Part shown: in pieces, positions 16,320 through 23,520 of the stretch | Position numbering within the stretch: position 1 is the stretch's first letter | How the letters are laid out: every line of letters starts with the position of its first letter | Notes under the pieces: model-generated | Told to the model about the DNA's origin: nothing | The model's input: the letters and a program-made list of their open reading frames with translations, nothing else | The model's database searches: none | Origin: a virus | Strand: one strand, 5' to 3' | IMG/VR virus record: IMGVR_UViG_3300036651_001176 | Span: 1 to 23,703 of that record | DNA length: 23,703 nucleotides | Translations under genes and position numbers: made by a program

Positions 16320-17309
16320 ATGTTAAACGAAAACCAGAAGAAGCAACTGGAATTAGCAGTTGCTGCTTTGGACCGTCAGTATGGTAAGGGTACAGTTATC
16401 AAACTGGACTCAGACGCCGTAGAACCTTGGCCATCAGTACCAACTGGTGCACTTACGTTAGATAATGCGTTAGGTATAGGGGGACTACCATTAGGGCGTG
16501 TAGTTGAAATATATGGAGAAGCCGGAACCGGCAAGTCAACTCTAGCCCTATCTGTTGTAGCCGAAGCTCAAGCTAAGGATATGGCTTGTATATATATCGA
16601 TGCTGAACATGCCTTAGATCCTGTATATATGAAGGCTGTCGGAGTGAATCTAGATGATCTCTATCTATCGCAGCCCGATTCTGGTGAACAGGCCCTTGAT
16701 GTAGTGCAGAAAATGGTTGCATCTCATGCTGTGGGAGTAATTGTTATAGATTCTGTCTCAACTCTAGTTCCACAGGTAGAGTTGGATGGCAACATTGGCG
16801 ATTCCCATATGGGCACTCAAGCTAGAATGATGTCACAGGCCCTAAGAATCCTAAATCCTGCTATTGCTAAATCCAGCACTATGGTAGTGTTTATTAACCA
16901 GTTTAGAGACAAGATGGTTCCGTATGGCGACCCTAGAACTACTTCTGGTGGTCGTGCACTTAAGTTCTATTCATCAGTACGCCTAGAAGTTTCTAAGGCT
17001 TCTGACATGAAGGGGAAGAACGGTGATATAAGTGGAATACGTTCTAAAGTAAAAGTTGTTAAGAACAAGCTTGCTCCAGCTCTTAAGGTGGCCGAATTTG
17101 ATATAGTCTTCGGTAAGGGCATTGATAAAGTAGGTTGTGTTGTTGATGTTGCTGAAGCAAGAGGTTTCCTGATAAGAAAGGGTGCTTGGTATTCAGACCC
17201 CGAGACTGGTGAGAACTTATCACAAGGCCGCGATAATCTTATTACATATCTTAAAGAAGACGATGCATTTTTATCAAGTTTAATTAAGAAGCTAAACGAA
17301 AATGTCTAA
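16320..17309 (+). CDS. recA: RecA-family recombinase
   Basis: A 329-residue RecA that should polymerise on single-stranded DNA and catalyse strand exchange in phage replication, recombination and repair. Motifs in order are Walker A GEAGTGKST (66-74), the catalytic Glu in YIDAEHALDP (Glu96), Walker B VIVIDS (140-145), the DNA-binding loop region GDSHMGTQARMMSQALR, FINQFRDKMVPYGDPRTTSG with GGRALKFYSSVRLEV, and VKVVKNKLAPALKVAEFDI. Bacterial RecA normally has GPESSGKTT as Walker A, so this P-loop is a divergent version. The protein is about 20 residues shorter than the E. coli one and lacks a long acidic C-terminal tail. A downstream zinc-ribbon gene overlaps its end by 8 bases. Start chosen because the ATG immediately follows a strong -10 box. 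Confidence 0.95.
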   Translation: MLNENQKKQLELAVAALDRQYGKGTVIKLDSDAVEPWPSVPTGALTLDNALGIGGLPLGRVVEIYGEAGTGKSTLALSVVAEAQAKDMACIYIDAEHALDPVYMKAVGVNLDDLYLSQPDSGEQALDVVQKMVASHAVGVIVIDSVSTLVPQVELDGNIGDSHMGTQARMMSQALRILNPAIAKSSTMVVFINQFRDKMVPYGDPRTTSGGRALKFYSSVRLEVSKASDMKGKNGDISGIRSKVKVVKNKLAPALKVAEFDIVFGKGIDKVGCVVDVAEARGFLIRKGAWYSDPETGENLSQGRDNLITYLKEDDAFLSSLIKKLNENV

Positions 17310-20539: not shown

Positions 20540-20555
20540 TTATAGGGTATAAAAT

Positions 20556-20612
20556 CTAGGAAAAAAATATATAGATGTATATATAGAAATCCTAGGGGAA
20601 AAAAATATAGAA
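20556..20612. repeat. Pair of A-tract direct repeats (bent-DNA-like control region)
   Basis: Two imperfect copies begin CTAGG and continue into seven A and a TATAGA-type tail: CTAGGAAAAAAATATATAGA at 20556 and CTAGGGGAAAAAAATATAGA at 20592. Between them is a TATATAGA doublet. The A7 tracts start 38 bp apart. Together with the inverted repeat to the left, this fills the 235-base gap between 20466 and 20702, in which I see no gene. It may bind a regulator or help promoter opening for the rightward module. Confidence 0.45.
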
Positions 20613-20630
20613 AAATAGCGTGGGAGATAC

Positions 20631-20684
20631 GATCAATAAAGCATTGATCATCTAATCATTTGATGCCCCCCGGGGTATTCAAAT
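20631..20684 (+). promoter_or_regulatory. Two-hairpin leader before the 20702 gene
   Basis: Hairpin 1 is GATCAAT (20631-20637) with ATTGATC (20643-20649), loop AAAGC. Hairpin 2 is ATTTGA (20658-20663) with TCAAAT (20679-20684), extended inside by GCCC/GGGT pairing around a one-base bulge. GAAAGGA follows within 4 bases of the second stem, then ATG at 20702. This is the first of a series with the same order: hairpin, hairpin, ribosome binding site, small gene. Confidence 0.6.
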
Positions 20685-20701
20685 CAAGAAAGGATAATCA
20701 C

Positions 20702-20827
20702 ATGTTCAAGAGGATGACGAAGGAAGAGAAGAAGATCGGACGCCGGTACTACAGGCGTGTTTGTTTCATCAGCGCAGTCATTGATGCAGTGCTCGTGCTT
20801 GGCATCAAGCTCGCTGTGAAGGACTAA
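20702..20827 (+). CDS. 41-residue basic single-pass membrane protein
   Basis: The ATG at 20702 follows GAAAGGA with an 8-base spacer and opens a 41-codon frame ending in TAA at 20825-20827. The start MFKRMTKEEKKIGRRYYRRV is strongly basic; the rest (CFISAVIDAVLVLGIKLAV) is one hydrophobic helix, so the basic end should stay in the cytoplasm. Codons are mostly G- or C-ending, unlike the AT-rich surroundings. It is the first gene of the rightward small-gene module. A role at the host membrane is plausible; the family was not recognised. Confidence 0.6.
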   Translation: MFKRMTKEEKKIGRRYYRRVCFISAVIDAVLVLGIKLAVKD

Positions 20828-20896
20828 TCTGATCTAGTCAGATGGTTAGCTATAGGTCTTTGTATCTATAGCTTTCCATGTGCTTAGATTAAGCAC
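20827..20896 (+). promoter_or_regulatory. Structured leader A (GGTT...TTCC family)
   Basis: Three stem-loops follow the preceding stop codon. ATCTGA (20827-20832) pairs with TCAGAT (20838-20843). The family hairpin is GGTT (20844-20847), AGCTATAG (20848-20855), a 10-base loop, CTATAGCT (20866-20873), TTCC (20874-20877). The last is GTGCTTA (20880-20886) with TAAGCAC (20890-20896). A GAAAGGA ribosome binding site and the 20917 ATG come next. Confidence 0.7.
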
Positions 20897-20916
20897 TGTA
20901 TAGAAAGGATAATGTA

Positions 20917-21132
20917 ATGGCTGTTATTAAAGCCTTTGCGGCTGGTTTGAAGGAAGGTTGGAATACAACTCCAACTGAAGAGCAGATGCAGTCTGTGGCG
21001 CGGATAGTAGTCCGTAAGACTACTGGACACGACTATGTAGGTGCTATTAGCACCCTGGTTCATCTGTTGAGTATTGAAGGCGAGATAGATGAGGATGTGA
21101 AGAAGAACGCAATAGAGTGGATGGAGGATTGA
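20917..21132 (+). CDS. 71-residue protein of unknown function
   Basis: The ATG at 20917 is preceded by AGAAAGGATAATGTA, giving a clear ribosome binding site. The product (MAVIKAFAAGLKEGWNTTPT, ending IDEDVKKNAIEWMED) is predicted helical throughout, with a Thr/Glu-rich centre and an acidic end. No metal-binding or membrane motif is seen. It lies between leaders A and B, consistent with a separately controlled early gene. Family not recognised. A long reading frame on the opposite strand here is a shadow. Confidence 0.65.
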   Translation: MAVIKAFAAGLKEGWNTTPTEEQMQSVARIVVRKTTGHDYVGAISTLVHLLSIEGEIDEDVKKNAIEWMED

Positions 21133-21143
21133 TGTATGTAGAT

Positions 21144-21206
21144 GGTTTGCCACAAACAGTGTGTTGTGGCATTCCATCCATGTACAGAAGCCAAGTATGT
21201 ATGTGG
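21144..21206 (+). promoter_or_regulatory. Structured leader B (GGTT...TTCC family)
   Basis: GGTT (21144-21147), TGCCACAA (21148-21155), an 8-base loop, TTGTGGCA (21164-21171), TTCC (21172-21175): a perfect 8-bp stem with the family flanks. The second stem is CCATGTAC (21178-21185) with GTATGTGG (21199-21206), 8 bp including two G-U pairs. AGAAAGGA starts immediately afterwards, before the 21223 ATG. Confidence 0.7.
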
Positions 21207-21222
21207 AGAAAGGAAGACAGTC

Positions 21223-21531
21223 ATGTCTGCTGCAACTGTAACTGAGACCAACACCAACAACAAGGAGAGCAACATGAAGGAGCTGGAGAACAAGGTCGAT
21301 AACCTGTTCAAGCACGCGCGCGTGGTCTGCACGAAGGAGGACTTCGCCAAGACCGTCAAGACCGTCGTGTACGGCATCGGACACCTGCTGCAGCTCGCGT
21401 ACTACGCGGGCATCAGCCTCATCGGACTCATCGTGGAGTACGTGGCCAAGTTCATCAACTGGCTGAAGAGCAAGTTCGATGCGGCCAAGGTCAACTTCGC
21501 GAAGAAGCACCTCGCTGATGCAGTGAAGTAG
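21223..21531 (+). CDS. 102-residue membrane-associated protein with two possible starts
   Basis: The ATG at 21223 has GAAAGGA upstream; a longer frame from 21142 would run through leader B and is rejected. A second in-frame ATG at 21274 has an ideal AAGGAG six bases ahead and would give an 85-residue form (MKELENKVDNLFKHARVV). The segment VVYGIGHLLQLAYYAGISLI continuing GLIVEYVAKFINWL is long, hydrophobic and amphipathic at its end, suggesting one or two membrane helices. The C-terminus is Lys/Ala-rich helix. From 21274 onward nearly all codons end in G or C, unlike the N-terminal 17 codons. A holin-like or host-membrane-targeting role is possible but unproven. Confidence 0.65.
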   Translation: MSAATVTETNTNNKESNMKELENKVDNLFKHARVVCTKEDFAKTVKTVVYGIGHLLQLAYYAGISLIGLIVEYVAKFINWLKSKFDAAKVNFAKKHLADAVK

Positions 21532-21542
21532 CATGCATATAG

Positions 21543-21605
21543 GGTCTATAAGGCGCTTGTATAGGTCTTATAGGCCTTATTATGTGTACTGCTGTGGTAT
21601 ACATA
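21543..21605 (+). promoter_or_regulatory. Structured leader C
   Basis: GGTCTATAAG (21543-21552) pairs with CTTATAGGCC (21567-21576), 10 bp with one G-U pair. TATGTGTAC (21581-21589) pairs with GTATACATA (21597-21605), 9 bp with one G-U pair and a 7-base loop. GAAAGGAG follows directly, then ATG at 21618. This is a more divergent copy: it has GGT and GCC flanks rather than GGTT and TTCC. Confidence 0.6.
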
Positions 21606-21617
21606 GAAAGGAGAATA

Positions 21618-21704
21618 ATGATAATTGGTCCTGGACCACATCCAAATCAAGGTAGTTATGATATGGCAGAGCTGGATTGGTATAGGTTGTATAACCTATC
21701 ATAG
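21618..21704 (+). CDS. 28-residue peptide ending at an in-frame amber codon
   Basis: The ATG at 21618 has a strong AAAGGAG ribosome binding site. The frame reads MIIGPGPHPNQGSYDMAELD then WYRLYNLS and stops at TAG (21702-21704). The same frame stays open past this codon for another 24 codons to TAG-TAA at 21777-21782, which is where the next leader would be expected to begin. The short product may therefore be the N-terminal part of a 52-53-residue protein interrupted by a nonsense codon, or the upstream half of a readthrough product. Too short for family recognition. Confidence 0.5.
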   Translation: MIIGPGPHPNQGSYDMAELDWYRLYNLS

Positions 21705-21779
21705 CGTGTTCATGTTGTAGATGTTGATTTGATGCCGTGGCCTGGAGATGTCGTATGGGACATCTGTAACAGGAAGTAG
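21705..21779 (+). other. In-frame extension beyond amber codon (readthrough or pseudogene segment)
   Basis: After the TAG at 21702-21704 the frame continues RVHVVDVDLMPWPGDVVWDI then CNRK before TAG at 21777. The composition is protein-like, with an aromatic and Val-rich core. An internal ATG exists (MPWPGDVV) but has no good ribosome binding site. Either the amber codon is suppressed or read through, or this is a recently broken gene. Confidence 0.4.
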
Positions 21780-21788
21780 TAAGTAATC

Positions 21789-21848
21789 GGTTTGTGGCAA
21801 AGGTAGTGTTGCCACATTCCGCATACTTATTACATCCCGTAGTAAGTA
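21789..21848 (+). promoter_or_regulatory. Structured leader D (GGTT...TTCC family)
   Basis: GGTT (21789-21792), TGTGGCAA (21793-21800), loop AGGTAGTG, TTGCCACA (21809-21816), TTCC (21817-21820): a perfect 8-bp stem with an 8-base loop. The second stem is TACTTATTAC (21824-21833) with GTAGTAAGTA (21839-21848), 10 bp with one G-U pair. AAAAGGAG and the 21870 ATG follow. Confidence 0.7.
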
Positions 21849-21869
21849 GTAGAGAAAAGGAGAGAAGTA

Positions 21870-22025
21870 ATGTATAACGTTATTGTTGAGTCGTGTGATT
21901 GTGGATGTCATTTGCCTGGCATTGATGCCAAGACTGGTTGGCCGGTTTGTTGTCAATGTCATGGTCGTGTCAAGTTTGCTGTATGGGCAAAGCTTGATTG
22001 GTTGATGGCTAAGATTGGTAGGTAG
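21870..22025 (+). CDS. 51-residue Cys-rich zinc-binding-like protein
   Basis: The ATG at 21870 follows AAAAGGAGAGAAGTA. The 51-codon frame ends in TAG at 22023-22025. SCDCGCHLPG and VCCQCHGR give six Cys and two His in two clusters about 18 residues apart, a small zinc-ribbon arrangement. The C-terminal half is a basic amphipathic helix (VKFAVWAKLDWLMAKIGR). It is separated from neighbours by leaders D and E. Nucleic-acid or host-protein binding is plausible; family not recognised. Confidence 0.65.
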   Translation: MYNVIVESCDCGCHLPGIDAKTGWPVCCQCHGRVKFAVWAKLDWLMAKIGR

Positions 22026-22034
22026 TAGATAGTC

Positions 22035-22093
22035 GGTTAGCCTATGGCTTAGGTCATAGGCTTTCCGCATATCTATTGCATAGTGTATAGATA
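22035..22093 (+). promoter_or_regulatory. Structured leader E (GGTT...TTCC family)
   Basis: GGTT (22035-22038), AGCCTATG (22039-22046), loop GCTTAGGT, CATAGGCT (22055-22062), TTCC (22063-22066): a perfect 8-bp stem and 8-base loop. The second stem is TATCTAT (22070-22076) with ATAGATA (22087-22093). GAGAAAGGA and the start at 22109 follow. It serves a three-gene run (22109, 22264, 22526) whose later members lack leaders of their own. Confidence 0.7.
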
Positions 22094-22108
22094 GCAGAGA
22101 AAGGAAGA

Positions 22109-22264
22109 ATGATGTTGTGTAAGGTTAATCGTTGTGTAGTTTTGGATGAAGCCGATAAGGCTTTGGAGCAGATTGATGTGGCACTGAAGGATAACTATGT
22201 GGCGCAGTTGTGTATTGTGCCCATGATATTCATTAGCTGTGTCGAGATAAAGGAGATAAGGTAA
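22109..22264 (+). CDS. 51-residue protein of unknown function
   Basis: Two adjacent ATG codons (22109 and 22112) follow GAGAAAGGAAGA; I use the first. The product starts MMLCKVNRCVVLDEADKALE and ends IVPMIFISCVEIKEIR, with a short hydrophobic stretch near the C-terminus and four Cys that are not arranged as a zinc motif. Its TAA overlaps the next ATG by one base (TAATG), and AAAGGAG lies inside its last codons, so it may exist partly to couple translation of the 82-residue gene. Family not recognised. Confidence 0.55.
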   Translation: MMLCKVNRCVVLDEADKALEQIDVALKDNYVAQLCIVPMIFISCVEIKEIR

Positions 22265-22512
22265 TGGCATATAAGACTGAGACAATCATTGAGATGGTGT
22301 CGAAGGGTCAAGAGTTGCCGAAGCAAGTTACAAAGGATGACTTGGTGAGGACGATTAAGTCATTGCTGCAGCAGGCACCTGTGGTGGACATGTCCATGAA
22401 TGTGGATAATGAGAAGTTGCATACGGTTACGTGTGCAAGGACAGGTTGTTGGAATAAGGCTAGTTTGCCGAAGTCCAAGGCTATTGCTTGGCGTTGTGAG
22501 AATCATAGGTAG
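22264..22512 (+). CDS. 82-residue protein with C-terminal CCCH-like metal site
   Basis: The ATG at 22264 overlaps the preceding stop codon and has AAAGGAG upstream. The first 50 residues are helical and charged (ETIIEMVSKGQELPKQVTKD). The C-terminal part VTCARTGCWNKASLPKSKAI, then AWRCENHR, has C-x4-C ... C-x2-H spacing suitable for one zinc ion. This architecture, an N-terminal helix bundle plus a small zinc knuckle, is common in small phage proteins that bind host factors, but I cannot name a family. A 13-base gap separates it from the next gene. Confidence 0.65.
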   Translation: MAYKTETIIEMVSKGQELPKQVTKDDLVRTIKSLLQQAPVVDMSMNVDNEKLHTVTCARTGCWNKASLPKSKAIAWRCENHR

Positions 22513-22525
22513 AAAGGATAGATTA

Positions 22526-22690
22526 ATGTCGAATACTCCAGAGTGGTATGAGCAGAAGGCTGAGTTGGCGCGTAGGACTATTGAGTTCTATGCACAAGAA
22601 GGTGATATAGATAAGATGTTGTTATGGACTGAGATAGAGGAGGAAGCAAGTCGTATCGCTATGATCTTGCGTGATATTGGTGAAGCCTAG
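22526..22690 (+). CDS. 54-residue acidic helical protein
   Basis: The ATG at 22526 has AGAAAGGATAGATTA ahead of it; a longer frame from 22400 overlaps the 82-residue gene in another frame and is rejected. The product starts MSNTPEWYEQKAELARRTIE and ends ASRIAMILRDIGEA. It is predicted to be two helices, rich in Glu, with an EGDID turn. It is the last gene of the leader E run. Function unknown. Confidence 0.6.
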   Translation: MSNTPEWYEQKAELARRTIEFYAQEGDIDKMLLWTEIEEEASRIAMILRDIGEA

Positions 22691-22721
22691 TGCGGATTCT
22701 AAATGTGTCTAACCTCCGGTT

Positions 22722-22750
22722 TTGACATTACGGTGAACGATAGATCTAGT
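22722..22750 (+). promoter_or_regulatory. Candidate promoter upstream of the 22867 gene
   Basis: TTGACA (22722-22727) is followed after 17 bases by TCTAGT (22745-22750), which matches four of six -10 positions. It lies in the 176-base gap after the leader E operon, just upstream of leader F. The -35 is perfect but the -10 is weak, so confidence is limited. Confidence 0.4.
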
Positions 22751-22763
22751 CGGTTGGTTGAGC

Positions 22764-22839
22764 AGTCGGTTGTGGGCGCTTTCGTCCCTTCCGACTCCCC
22801 AGCGAACCAGGCTGGCGTACATGTCCCACAATGGGCATG
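22764..22839 (+). promoter_or_regulatory. Structured leader F (variant of the GGTT...TTCC family)
   Basis: AGTCGG (22764-22769) pairs with CCGACT (22791-22796) and GGG (22774-22776) with CCC (22786-22788). GGTT (22768-22771) and TTCC (22789-22792) occupy the family positions. The second stem is CATG (22820-22823) plus CCCA (22825-22828) with TGGG (22832-22835) plus CATG (22836-22839), with one bulged T. AAGGAG and the 22867 ATG follow. AGTCGGTTG also occurs 16 bp upstream at 22748-22756 as a direct repeat. Confidence 0.55.
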
Positions 22840-22866
22840 GTGACAATAGATAAGGAGAGCTATACC

Positions 22867-23457
22867 ATGGTACAAGCAGCAGCTAAGAGTGGTAGCCGTC
22901 CCCGTCAGACCAAGGCGTCTGAGCCGCAGGTGATGACCCCGCAGAACTTCATGCGGGAGCTGGAAGAGCTGTTCGCTCAGGCGAACCGCAAGGTCGCCAA
23001 GAGCCAGCTGTATGTCATGACCCTGCTCGCAGCAGAGGACGAGAACGGCCCGGCGATCAGTCACGTCAGCGACATCGCCGGTGTGGAGGACGTGGCCCGT
23101 AGCGTCGGACGTTACGTCCAGACGGCCATGATGAGCAAGGACGCCAGCGACCTGCCGACCGAGCGCATGCTCAAGGGCATCAACTGGCTGACGCAACCGC
23201 TCAGCCCCGGCCAGCTCAGCTTCCTGGCCCGTCACACAGAGTGGATGGAGGGCAACTCCATCGCCAAGCCGAGCACCATCGCTGGCTACCAGCGTGTGTA
23301 CACCCGCCATGCCAACGAGTTCGGCATCGGCGACAACAACAGCTGCGACATCTGCATCATGCAGCGCGAGGTGAACGAGCAGGACACCGCAGCGAAGAAA
23401 GCCCGTGCAGATCAACTGTCGGCGCAGTTCCGCCAGCAGGTCAAGATCAGCCTGTAG
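22867..23457 (+). CDS. 196-residue protein of unknown function with high-GC codon use
   Basis: I choose the ATG at 22867 because AAGGAG lies 9 bases upstream; the frame could extend to 22831, but that start lies inside the hairpin of leader F. The N-terminus (MVQAAAKSGSRPRQTKASEP) is basic and disordered. The rest looks helical (MRELEELFAQANRKVAKSQL), with a possible small motif NSCDICIMQRE near residue 159. The C-terminus is charged helix. Nearly every codon ends in G or C, in strong contrast to the upstream small genes. It is the largest gene in the small-gene module. A 288-residue frame on the opposite strand is an artefact of this codon bias. Confidence 0.65.
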   Translation: MVQAAAKSGSRPRQTKASEPQVMTPQNFMRELEELFAQANRKVAKSQLYVMTLLAAEDENGPAISHVSDIAGVEDVARSVGRYVQTAMMSKDASDLPTERMLKGINWLTQPLSPGQLSFLARHTEWMEGNSIAKPSTIAGYQRVYTRHANEFGIGDNNSCDICIMQREVNEQDTAAKKARADQLSAQFRQQVKISL

Positions 23458-23458
23458 G

Positions 23459-23520
23459 GCTAAGCAGGTAGTGAGTGTGGTGGCGTTCAATGGGGAGCGC
23501 CACCCACTCATTGCTTTAGC
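23459..23520 (+). other. Long stem-loop after the 196-residue gene
   Basis: TGAGTG (23472-23477) and GGTGGCG (23479-23485) pair with CGCCACC (23498-23504) and CACTCA (23505-23510), 13 bp with one bulge and a 12-base loop. An outer stem GCTAAGCA (23459-23466) with TGCTTTAGC (23512-23520) can close it. It begins 2 bases after the stop codon. A short T-run follows, so termination is possible; it may also open the next leader. Confidence 0.55.

Follow-up and report, generated by a model that had tools for sequence, protein, structure and literature searches.

Repeated leader RNAs with a shared, competing arm precede small genes in an uncultured phage

We found that tiny genes in a 23.7-kb IMG/VR virus record (IMGVR_UViG_3300036651_001176; 23,703 nucleotides, analyzed at full length and called the window here), a fragment of a tailed phage, are preceded by a series of leaders, A to F after a first leader. 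Judged from their sequences, leaders A, B, D, and E are almost certainly a conserved structured RNA, and it is comparison among the copies that establishes the predicted fold, namely a long rod whose 3' arm can alternatively pair with a third arm close to the Shine-Dalgarno sequence (SD) of the next gene. We regard the leaders as RNA elements of one design that sit between adjacent small cistrons; the phage message that carries them is probably polycistronic. The array is unusual in that a single three-arm fold is written in a different sequence in each copy, with a consensus that is replaced between lineages. The four rods are:

Leader A rod: 20830 to 20891, + strand; core at 20844-20877; begins 2 nucleotides past the stop codon at 20825-20827.
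Leader B rod: 21133 to 21186, + strand; core at 21144-21175; begins directly past the stop codon at 21130-21132.
Leader D rod: 21776 to 21833, + strand; core at 21789-21820; 5' arm overlaps the stop codon at 21776-21778 if gene g4 is read past its TAG.
Leader E rod: 22022 to 22079, + strand; core at 22035-22066; 5' arm overlaps the stop codon at 22023-22025.

GGTT followed by a perfect 8-base-pair (bp) stem with a loop of 8 or 10 nucleotides and TTCC occurs at 20844, 21144, 21789, and 22035, four times on the + strand and never on the - strand, against a mean of 0.005 such sites in shuffled windows. This hairpin is not free-standing, since its flanks add a further 7-10 bp of pairing, and it forms the center of a rod of 54–62 nucleotides, for which folding predicts about -27 to -35 kcal/mol. 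From the outside inward, each rod (about 22–28 rungs long) consists of an outer helix, a small internal loop, GG/CC, an invariant tandem U·U loop (UU/UU) near the middle, an inner helix, and the terminal loop; in leader D, these are 10 bp, a 2x2 loop, CGG/CCG, UU/UU, 8 bp, and an 8-nucleotide loop. All four rods have GG, UU/UU, CC, and one G-C pair in common but differ in the remaining pairs of the inner helix. Between the inner helices of B (21144-21175) and D (21789-21820), the middle three pairs are strand-swapped (GCCACA/TGTGGC versus TGTGGC/GCCACA).

In an alignment of the four rods, 97% of the cells were paired, and 12 of the 18 pairs had undergone two-sided changes, which none of 500 shuffles equaled; when one side was offset by 1–3 columns, the pairing fell to 28–49%. 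Rods built from their own arms reached -27 to -33 kcal/mol but only -8 to -14 kcal/mol with the arm of another copy, the own arm being best in all four cases. Both the GGTT/TTCC hairpin and the covariation of its stems, which a preliminary description had read from the sequence alone, thus stood up to these controls. Relative to dinucleotide shuffles, the whole-leader folds had z values of -3.9 (A), -3.5 (B), -4.8 (C), -6.6 (D), -6.9 (E), and -2.0 (F). A covariance model built from A, B, D, and E detected no further significant copy within the window.

In A to E, the stretch that separates the rod core from the SD folds by itself into a second hairpin (z of -2.4 to -3.1 for A, B, D, and E):

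Leader A second hairpin: 20880 to 20896, + strand; GTGCTTA/TAAGCAC; overlaps the rod 3' arm; SD AGAAAGG at 20902.
Leader B second hairpin: 21177 to 21207, + strand; 10 bp; uses the rod 3' arm; SD AGAAAGG at 21207.
Leader C second hairpin: 21581 to 21605, + strand; 10 bp; competes with the outer arm of the rod.
Leader D second hairpin: 21821 to 21850, + strand; uses the rod 3' arm; SD AAAAGG at 21855.
Leader E second hairpin: 22067 to 22095, + strand; uses the rod 3' arm; SD AGAAAGG at 22098.

In all five leaders, the 5' strand of this hairpin is the outer 3' arm of the rod (arm 2), and its partner (arm 3) lies just 5' of the SD. Arm 2 is thus contested by arm 1 (rod) and arm 3 (second hairpin), and according to the folding models the two structures would largely exclude each other. 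Hence, the two-hairpin plan of the preliminary description was right in placing a second hairpin before GAAAGG/AAAAGG in A to E, but the hairpins share an arm and so would largely not coexist. Arms 1 and 3 of leader D are near-repeats (GTAGTAAGTAAT and GTAGTAAGTAGT), and in all five rows the second hairpin with its own arm outperformed every swapped combination. Arm 1 starts at most 2 nucleotides past the upstream stop codon, or overlaps it, in A to E, the stop in D being the second stop of the g4 frame. In B, D, and E, the SD was predicted to be largely free of pairing (P of 0.95-1.0 for the unpaired state).

The window element itself was found nowhere else: covariance-model searches for the GGTT/TTCC consensus detected none in 15 terminase loci, 47 other whole viral records, or 80 recA loci, and a strict pattern search of all viral contigs yielded no site outside the window. 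Related phages do carry hairpins of another consensus in the equivalent gaps, so that of the expectation that relatives would have the element there, the position held and the exact sequence did not. In 50 dereplicated recA loci, the region downstream of the gene, read on the same strand, had 0.74 strong stems per kb, compared to 0.07 upstream and 0.065 in shuffled sequence, and the downstream side was the richer one in 46 of the 50. The window follows the same arrangement: its small genes form a block that comes after recA on the same strand, with a leader before the SD; this block contains 1.54 strong stems per kb and the rest of the window 0.05–0.10. From relatives, we collected four sets of leaders in which a terminator, a T-run, and a hairpin follow one another, with the consensus GVCTAG, GGGTAG (two sets), or GGATAG. 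In each set, own arms outpaired swapped arms (z of -10.9, -3.6, -5.0, and -5.1; 0 of 300 permutations each), and the stem covariation predicted in the preliminary description is thus also present in the relatives' own hairpins, where, as described below, G·U pairs are favored.

The lineage motif TTTATGNNTAG after the T-run is a trait of these relatives, the window leaders having neither motif nor T-run. Seven records, some of them near-identical, each contained the motif TTTATGVCTAGNNNNNNGG 5–13 times, always in a single orientation within a record, whereas its reversed control never occurred; the window record had 0 matches. In bacterial genomes, an 18-base group motif gave scattered single matches only. 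In some relatives, the hairpin contains a small internal loop flanked by GC-rich sequence, for example GGA-UA/AG-UCC, which in its sequence is reminiscent of GG-UU/UU-CC in the window. To us, this suggests a single positional theme in which the elements themselves turn over rapidly among related phages, and it is plausible that the window element is homologous by descent to the relatives' hairpins. A loop motif, WAGGT, that appears in window leaders A, C, D, and E and in relatives was dropped as a sign of homology and kept as a lead, as its distance from GGTT varies in the window.

Individual lineages differ in their details. Downstream of recA in the loci L044, L035, L136, L137, and L129-L134, many small genes lie behind a terminator whose T-run abuts a lineage-specific motif (TTTATGVCTAG, TTTATGGGTAG, or TTTTTGAGGATAGG) that forms the 5' arm of the covarying hairpin, and the second hairpins there often hold the SD in their loop, as in GUACC-AGGA-GGUAC. 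In L268 and L252, the hairpin is followed by boxes that resemble TATATAAATA (T4-late-promoter-like) or read TATATATCTTTAAATT, and L252 has the SD and start codon inside a hairpin whose stem varies among copies (AUAGUGUCC-UUAGGA-GGUACACUAU).

Several observations indicate that the elements act as RNA. With the window model, scores were 56–65 bits for the + (coding) strand but 24–28 bits for the - strand. The invariant TT/TT core departs from the dyad symmetry of DNA and becomes symmetric only once a single strand folds. We further examined the mismatches of 99 collected hairpins from relatives, setting the register by Watson–Crick pairs only and using copies with at least 6 such pairs. Among the non-Watson–Crick cells facing G or T, 26 of 31 were G·U (control 33%), while among those facing A or C, 6 of 21 were A·C (control 32%). 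This excess of G·U without an excess of A·C is, in the sequences, a signature of transcribed RNA and not of a DNA operator. As the UU/UU symmetry, the strand-specific scores, and the G·U asymmetry agree, we consider the elements to be RNA rather than DNA. Intrinsic terminators were rejected for the window, in line with the preliminary description: leaders A-F have no run of at least 5 T, and a terminator scan gave one weak match, in C. Promoters were likewise rejected, with sigma-70 -35/-10 hexamers at chance level in the window (5 found versus 5.6 expected).

The sequence fixes only the anatomy of the leaders, and among the functions proposed in the preliminary description (processing or stability, a protein site, a cassette), we favor the first. 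The best-placed candidate, which we hold tentatively, is intercistronic processing combined with refolding, because it most simply accounts for a third arm able to take the place of arm 1. The rod would be a processing site between cistrons, cut most likely by host RNase III near the central UU/UU. Such a cut would separate the cistrons and release arm 2 from arm 1, whereupon arm 2 could pair with arm 3, giving each small mRNA a protective 5' hairpin and an exposed ribosome-binding site. With about 22-28 rungs, the rods have the approximately two turns of double-stranded RNA of an RNase III site, and RNase III could cut near the middle of such a rod. A comparable outcome may be achieved in related phages by a terminator and then a lineage-specific leader hairpin before each small gene. 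More broadly, and with greater reservation, we suggest that a group of large phages may carry fast-evolving leader RNAs before each small gene, with a consensus specific to the lineage and a stem specific to the copy, which in the window would have become a three-arm switch, driven by cleavage or by ribosomes, and would constitute a new module.

Several points weigh against processing by RNase III. The four copies are few and come from one genome, and D and E have sequence in common, including their flanks, such that they appear duplicated. RNase III has no need of an invariant GG/UU-UU/CC, and such conservation may point to a dedicated binding protein or to a recent duplication. The relatives' leader hairpins, at about 8-9 bp, are too short for RNase III, and cleavage is thus not a function of the whole group. 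Finally, the predicted fold of leader A already joins the inner hairpin and the second hairpin, and the SD there has an unpaired probability of only 45%.

The main rival to processing is a switch gated by ribosomes, where a ribosome that finishes the upstream gene covers arm 1 and the pairing of arms 2 and 3 beside the SD alters the next initiation, all without cleavage. We consider this rather unlikely: the position of arm 1 at the upstream stop codon and the three-arm competition, both seen in all of A-E, are what such a switch would use, but the SD is already open in the rod form of B, D, and E, leaving little to release, and the terminators that relatives have between stop codon and leader break any such coupling. 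Third in rank, and also unlikely, is a site for a phage or host RNA-binding protein that controls a small-gene regulon, reading the constant GG-UU/UU-CC core with the variable helices as a scaffold. It would account for the invariant positions within changing inner helices and for the analogous internal loop of some relatives, but the core varies among lineages, the loop is not conserved, no candidate protein was identified, and the conservation of the core may stem from recent duplication.

Transcription signals, be they promoters, terminators, dyad DNA operators, or hairpin promoters of the phage N4 type, appear improbable. In relatives, the hairpin does lie directly 3' of a terminator T-run with the conserved TTTATGNNTAG, and other lineages have TATAAATA-like boxes there, but the window has no T-run and only chance-level sigma-70 matches, and the G·U asymmetry and the non-dyad UU/UU speak for RNA. 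Neither a scan of relatives for the single-subunit RNA polymerase family PF00940 nor its control gave a match. Even less probable is a put-like antiterminator, in which two hairpins of the nascent RNA load RNA polymerase for terminator read-through as in HK022: many leaders have tandem hairpins and relatives have intergenic terminators, but no T-run terminators separate the window small genes, and the window hairpins compete instead of coexisting. Least credible are boundaries of mobile gene cassettes, that is, integron attC-like or other recombination sites, for although the unit of hairpin and tiny gene repeats and D and E look duplicated with their flanks, no attC boxes (RYYYAAC/GTTRRRY) were seen on reading, without a pattern search, no recombinase was recognized among the window proteins scanned, and the tightly spaced g6-g7-g8 have no leaders between them.

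The remaining leaders follow the design less closely:

First leader: 20631 to 20684, + strand; hairpin GATCAAT/ATTGATC (20631-20649) and hairpin ATTTGATgCCCC/GGGGtATTCAAAT (20658-20684).
Leader C rod: 21527 to 21593, + strand; long near-perfect stem without GGTT/TTCC; overlaps the stop codon at 21529-21531.
Leader F long rod: 22746 to 22815, + strand; contains an inner GGTT..TTCC and precedes g9.
Leader F second hairpin: 22820 to 22839, + strand; CATGTCC/GGGCATG, from the fold.

Leader C is a very stable rod at the equivalent position but divergent in sequence (covariance model E = 9.4, chance level), and leader F is a weak family match (E = 2.2, also chance level). The first leader has no GGTT/TTCC and consists of two ordinary hairpins of another design. 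Where the preliminary description counted seven leaders of one plan, with C, F, and the first leader as looser variants, we thus find five strong members (A-E, with C as a divergent rod), one weak member (F), and one that is different.

The leaders belong to a block of small genes downstream of recA:

recA (UvsX/RecA-type recombinase): 16320-17309, + strand.
Small-gene block with leaders: 20702 to 23457, + strand; open reading frames (ORFs) with SD.
g1: 20702-20827, + strand; small ORF with SD.
g2: 20917-21132, + strand; small ORF with SD.
g3: 21223-21531, + strand; small ORF with SD.
g4: 21618-21704, or to 21778 if read past TAG, + strand; small ORF with SD.
g5: 21870-22025, + strand; small ORF with SD.
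g6: 22109-22264, + strand; small ORF with SD.
g7: 22264-22512, + strand; small ORF with SD.
g8: 22526-22690, + strand; small ORF with SD.
g9: 22867-23457, + strand; small ORF with SD.

Other genes intervene between recA and the block. Besides recA, the window encodes a terminase, a ClpB-type ATPase, and an AAA ATPase; the tiny + strand genes then start at 20702, and g7 (22264) and g8 (22526) follow at tight spacing without such a leader. The terminase has ~50% identity to terminases of many viral contigs, the longest among the matches listed being 216 kb. The AAA ATPase is nearest to mycobacteriophages Myrna, Phabba, and ScoobyDoobyDoo (34–36%), a sequence similarity that gives a weak hint of an actinobacterial host. 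The small proteins had no credible Pfam or PHROG match among the members scanned and no tblastn match in relatives (the g8 query was in the wrong frame), and a single-sequence scan of viral contigs with g9, the AAA ATPase, and RecA found no protein relatives. The g4 frame has one in-frame TAG (21702-21704), beyond which it continues to 21778 (MIIGPGPHPNQGSYDMAELDWYRLYNLS*RVHVVDVDLMPWPGDVVWDICNRK), at the start of leader D. This may reflect read-through, a recent nonsense mutation, or an assembly error, and TAG serves as an ordinary stop elsewhere in the block. The G+C content at third codon positions is 0.87 in g3 (21223-21531) and 0.84 in g9 (22867-23457) compared to 0.31-0.71 in neighbors, as if these genes were codon-optimized for high expression or of foreign origin. 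An A/T-rich stretch between the two transcription directions (20540-20615), with a repeated CTAGG..AAAAAAATATA unit, is a possible promoter region of the block. Directly 3' of g9, a long hairpin without a T-run (23466-23520, about -42 kcal/mol) had only weak sub-threshold Rfam matches to microRNA precursors, which are generic hairpins.

Structured leaders and intercistronic processing hairpins are already known in phages. The nearest working analogy would be the hairpins at which RNase III processes phage T7 transcripts between cistrons, rods that contain an internal loop and vary in primary sequence. Like these, the window rods lie between cistrons, are of comparable length, and have an internal loop in mid-rod; unlike them, they have one constant UU/UU type, the T7 loops being asymmetric, and we know of no third arm at T7 sites that re-pairs with the 3' arm. 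A pair of neighboring hairpins is also present in the nascent put antiterminator RNA of HK022, which acts early in an operon, but the window copies are repeated per gene, compete, and lie in a block without T-run terminators. In Rfam 15, the window had no match above the gathering cut-off, sub-threshold matches being generic hairpin families, and six relatives' loci gave only a tRNA.

Among the papers searched, we found no published match to the window leaders. Small phage genes are similarly clustered in SPO1-type host-takeover clusters, for which (see PMC6873191) the papers searched gave no structured-RNA leader of the window type. The nearest published layout that we found is that of the ESAS of Cluster K mycobacteriophages, imperfect inverted repeats that lie just upstream of the start sites of a subset of non-structural genes, with a spacer of a few bases, a consensus that varies among subclusters, and no assigned function (PMC3203893). 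An ESAS consists of a 13-bp SAS and 17-bp inverted repeats, in which changes generally do not support RNA pairing, and its authors preferred DNA binding (PMC3203893). Both systems thus place repeated inverted repeats before phage gene starts (PMC3203893), but the window changes are compensatory and RNA-oriented, and its leaders have a third arm and lack the 13-bp SAS, with none of 5'-GGGATAGGAGCCC seen in them on reading. The leader array amounts to a natural set of compensatory mutants, which makes the expression of a small-gene cluster directly testable, and such leaders mark small-gene clusters in uncultured phages by position and structure, not by sequence. Overall, the window leaders belong with the intercistronic and leader RNAs of phages, and the group-wide family may deserve a kind of its own.

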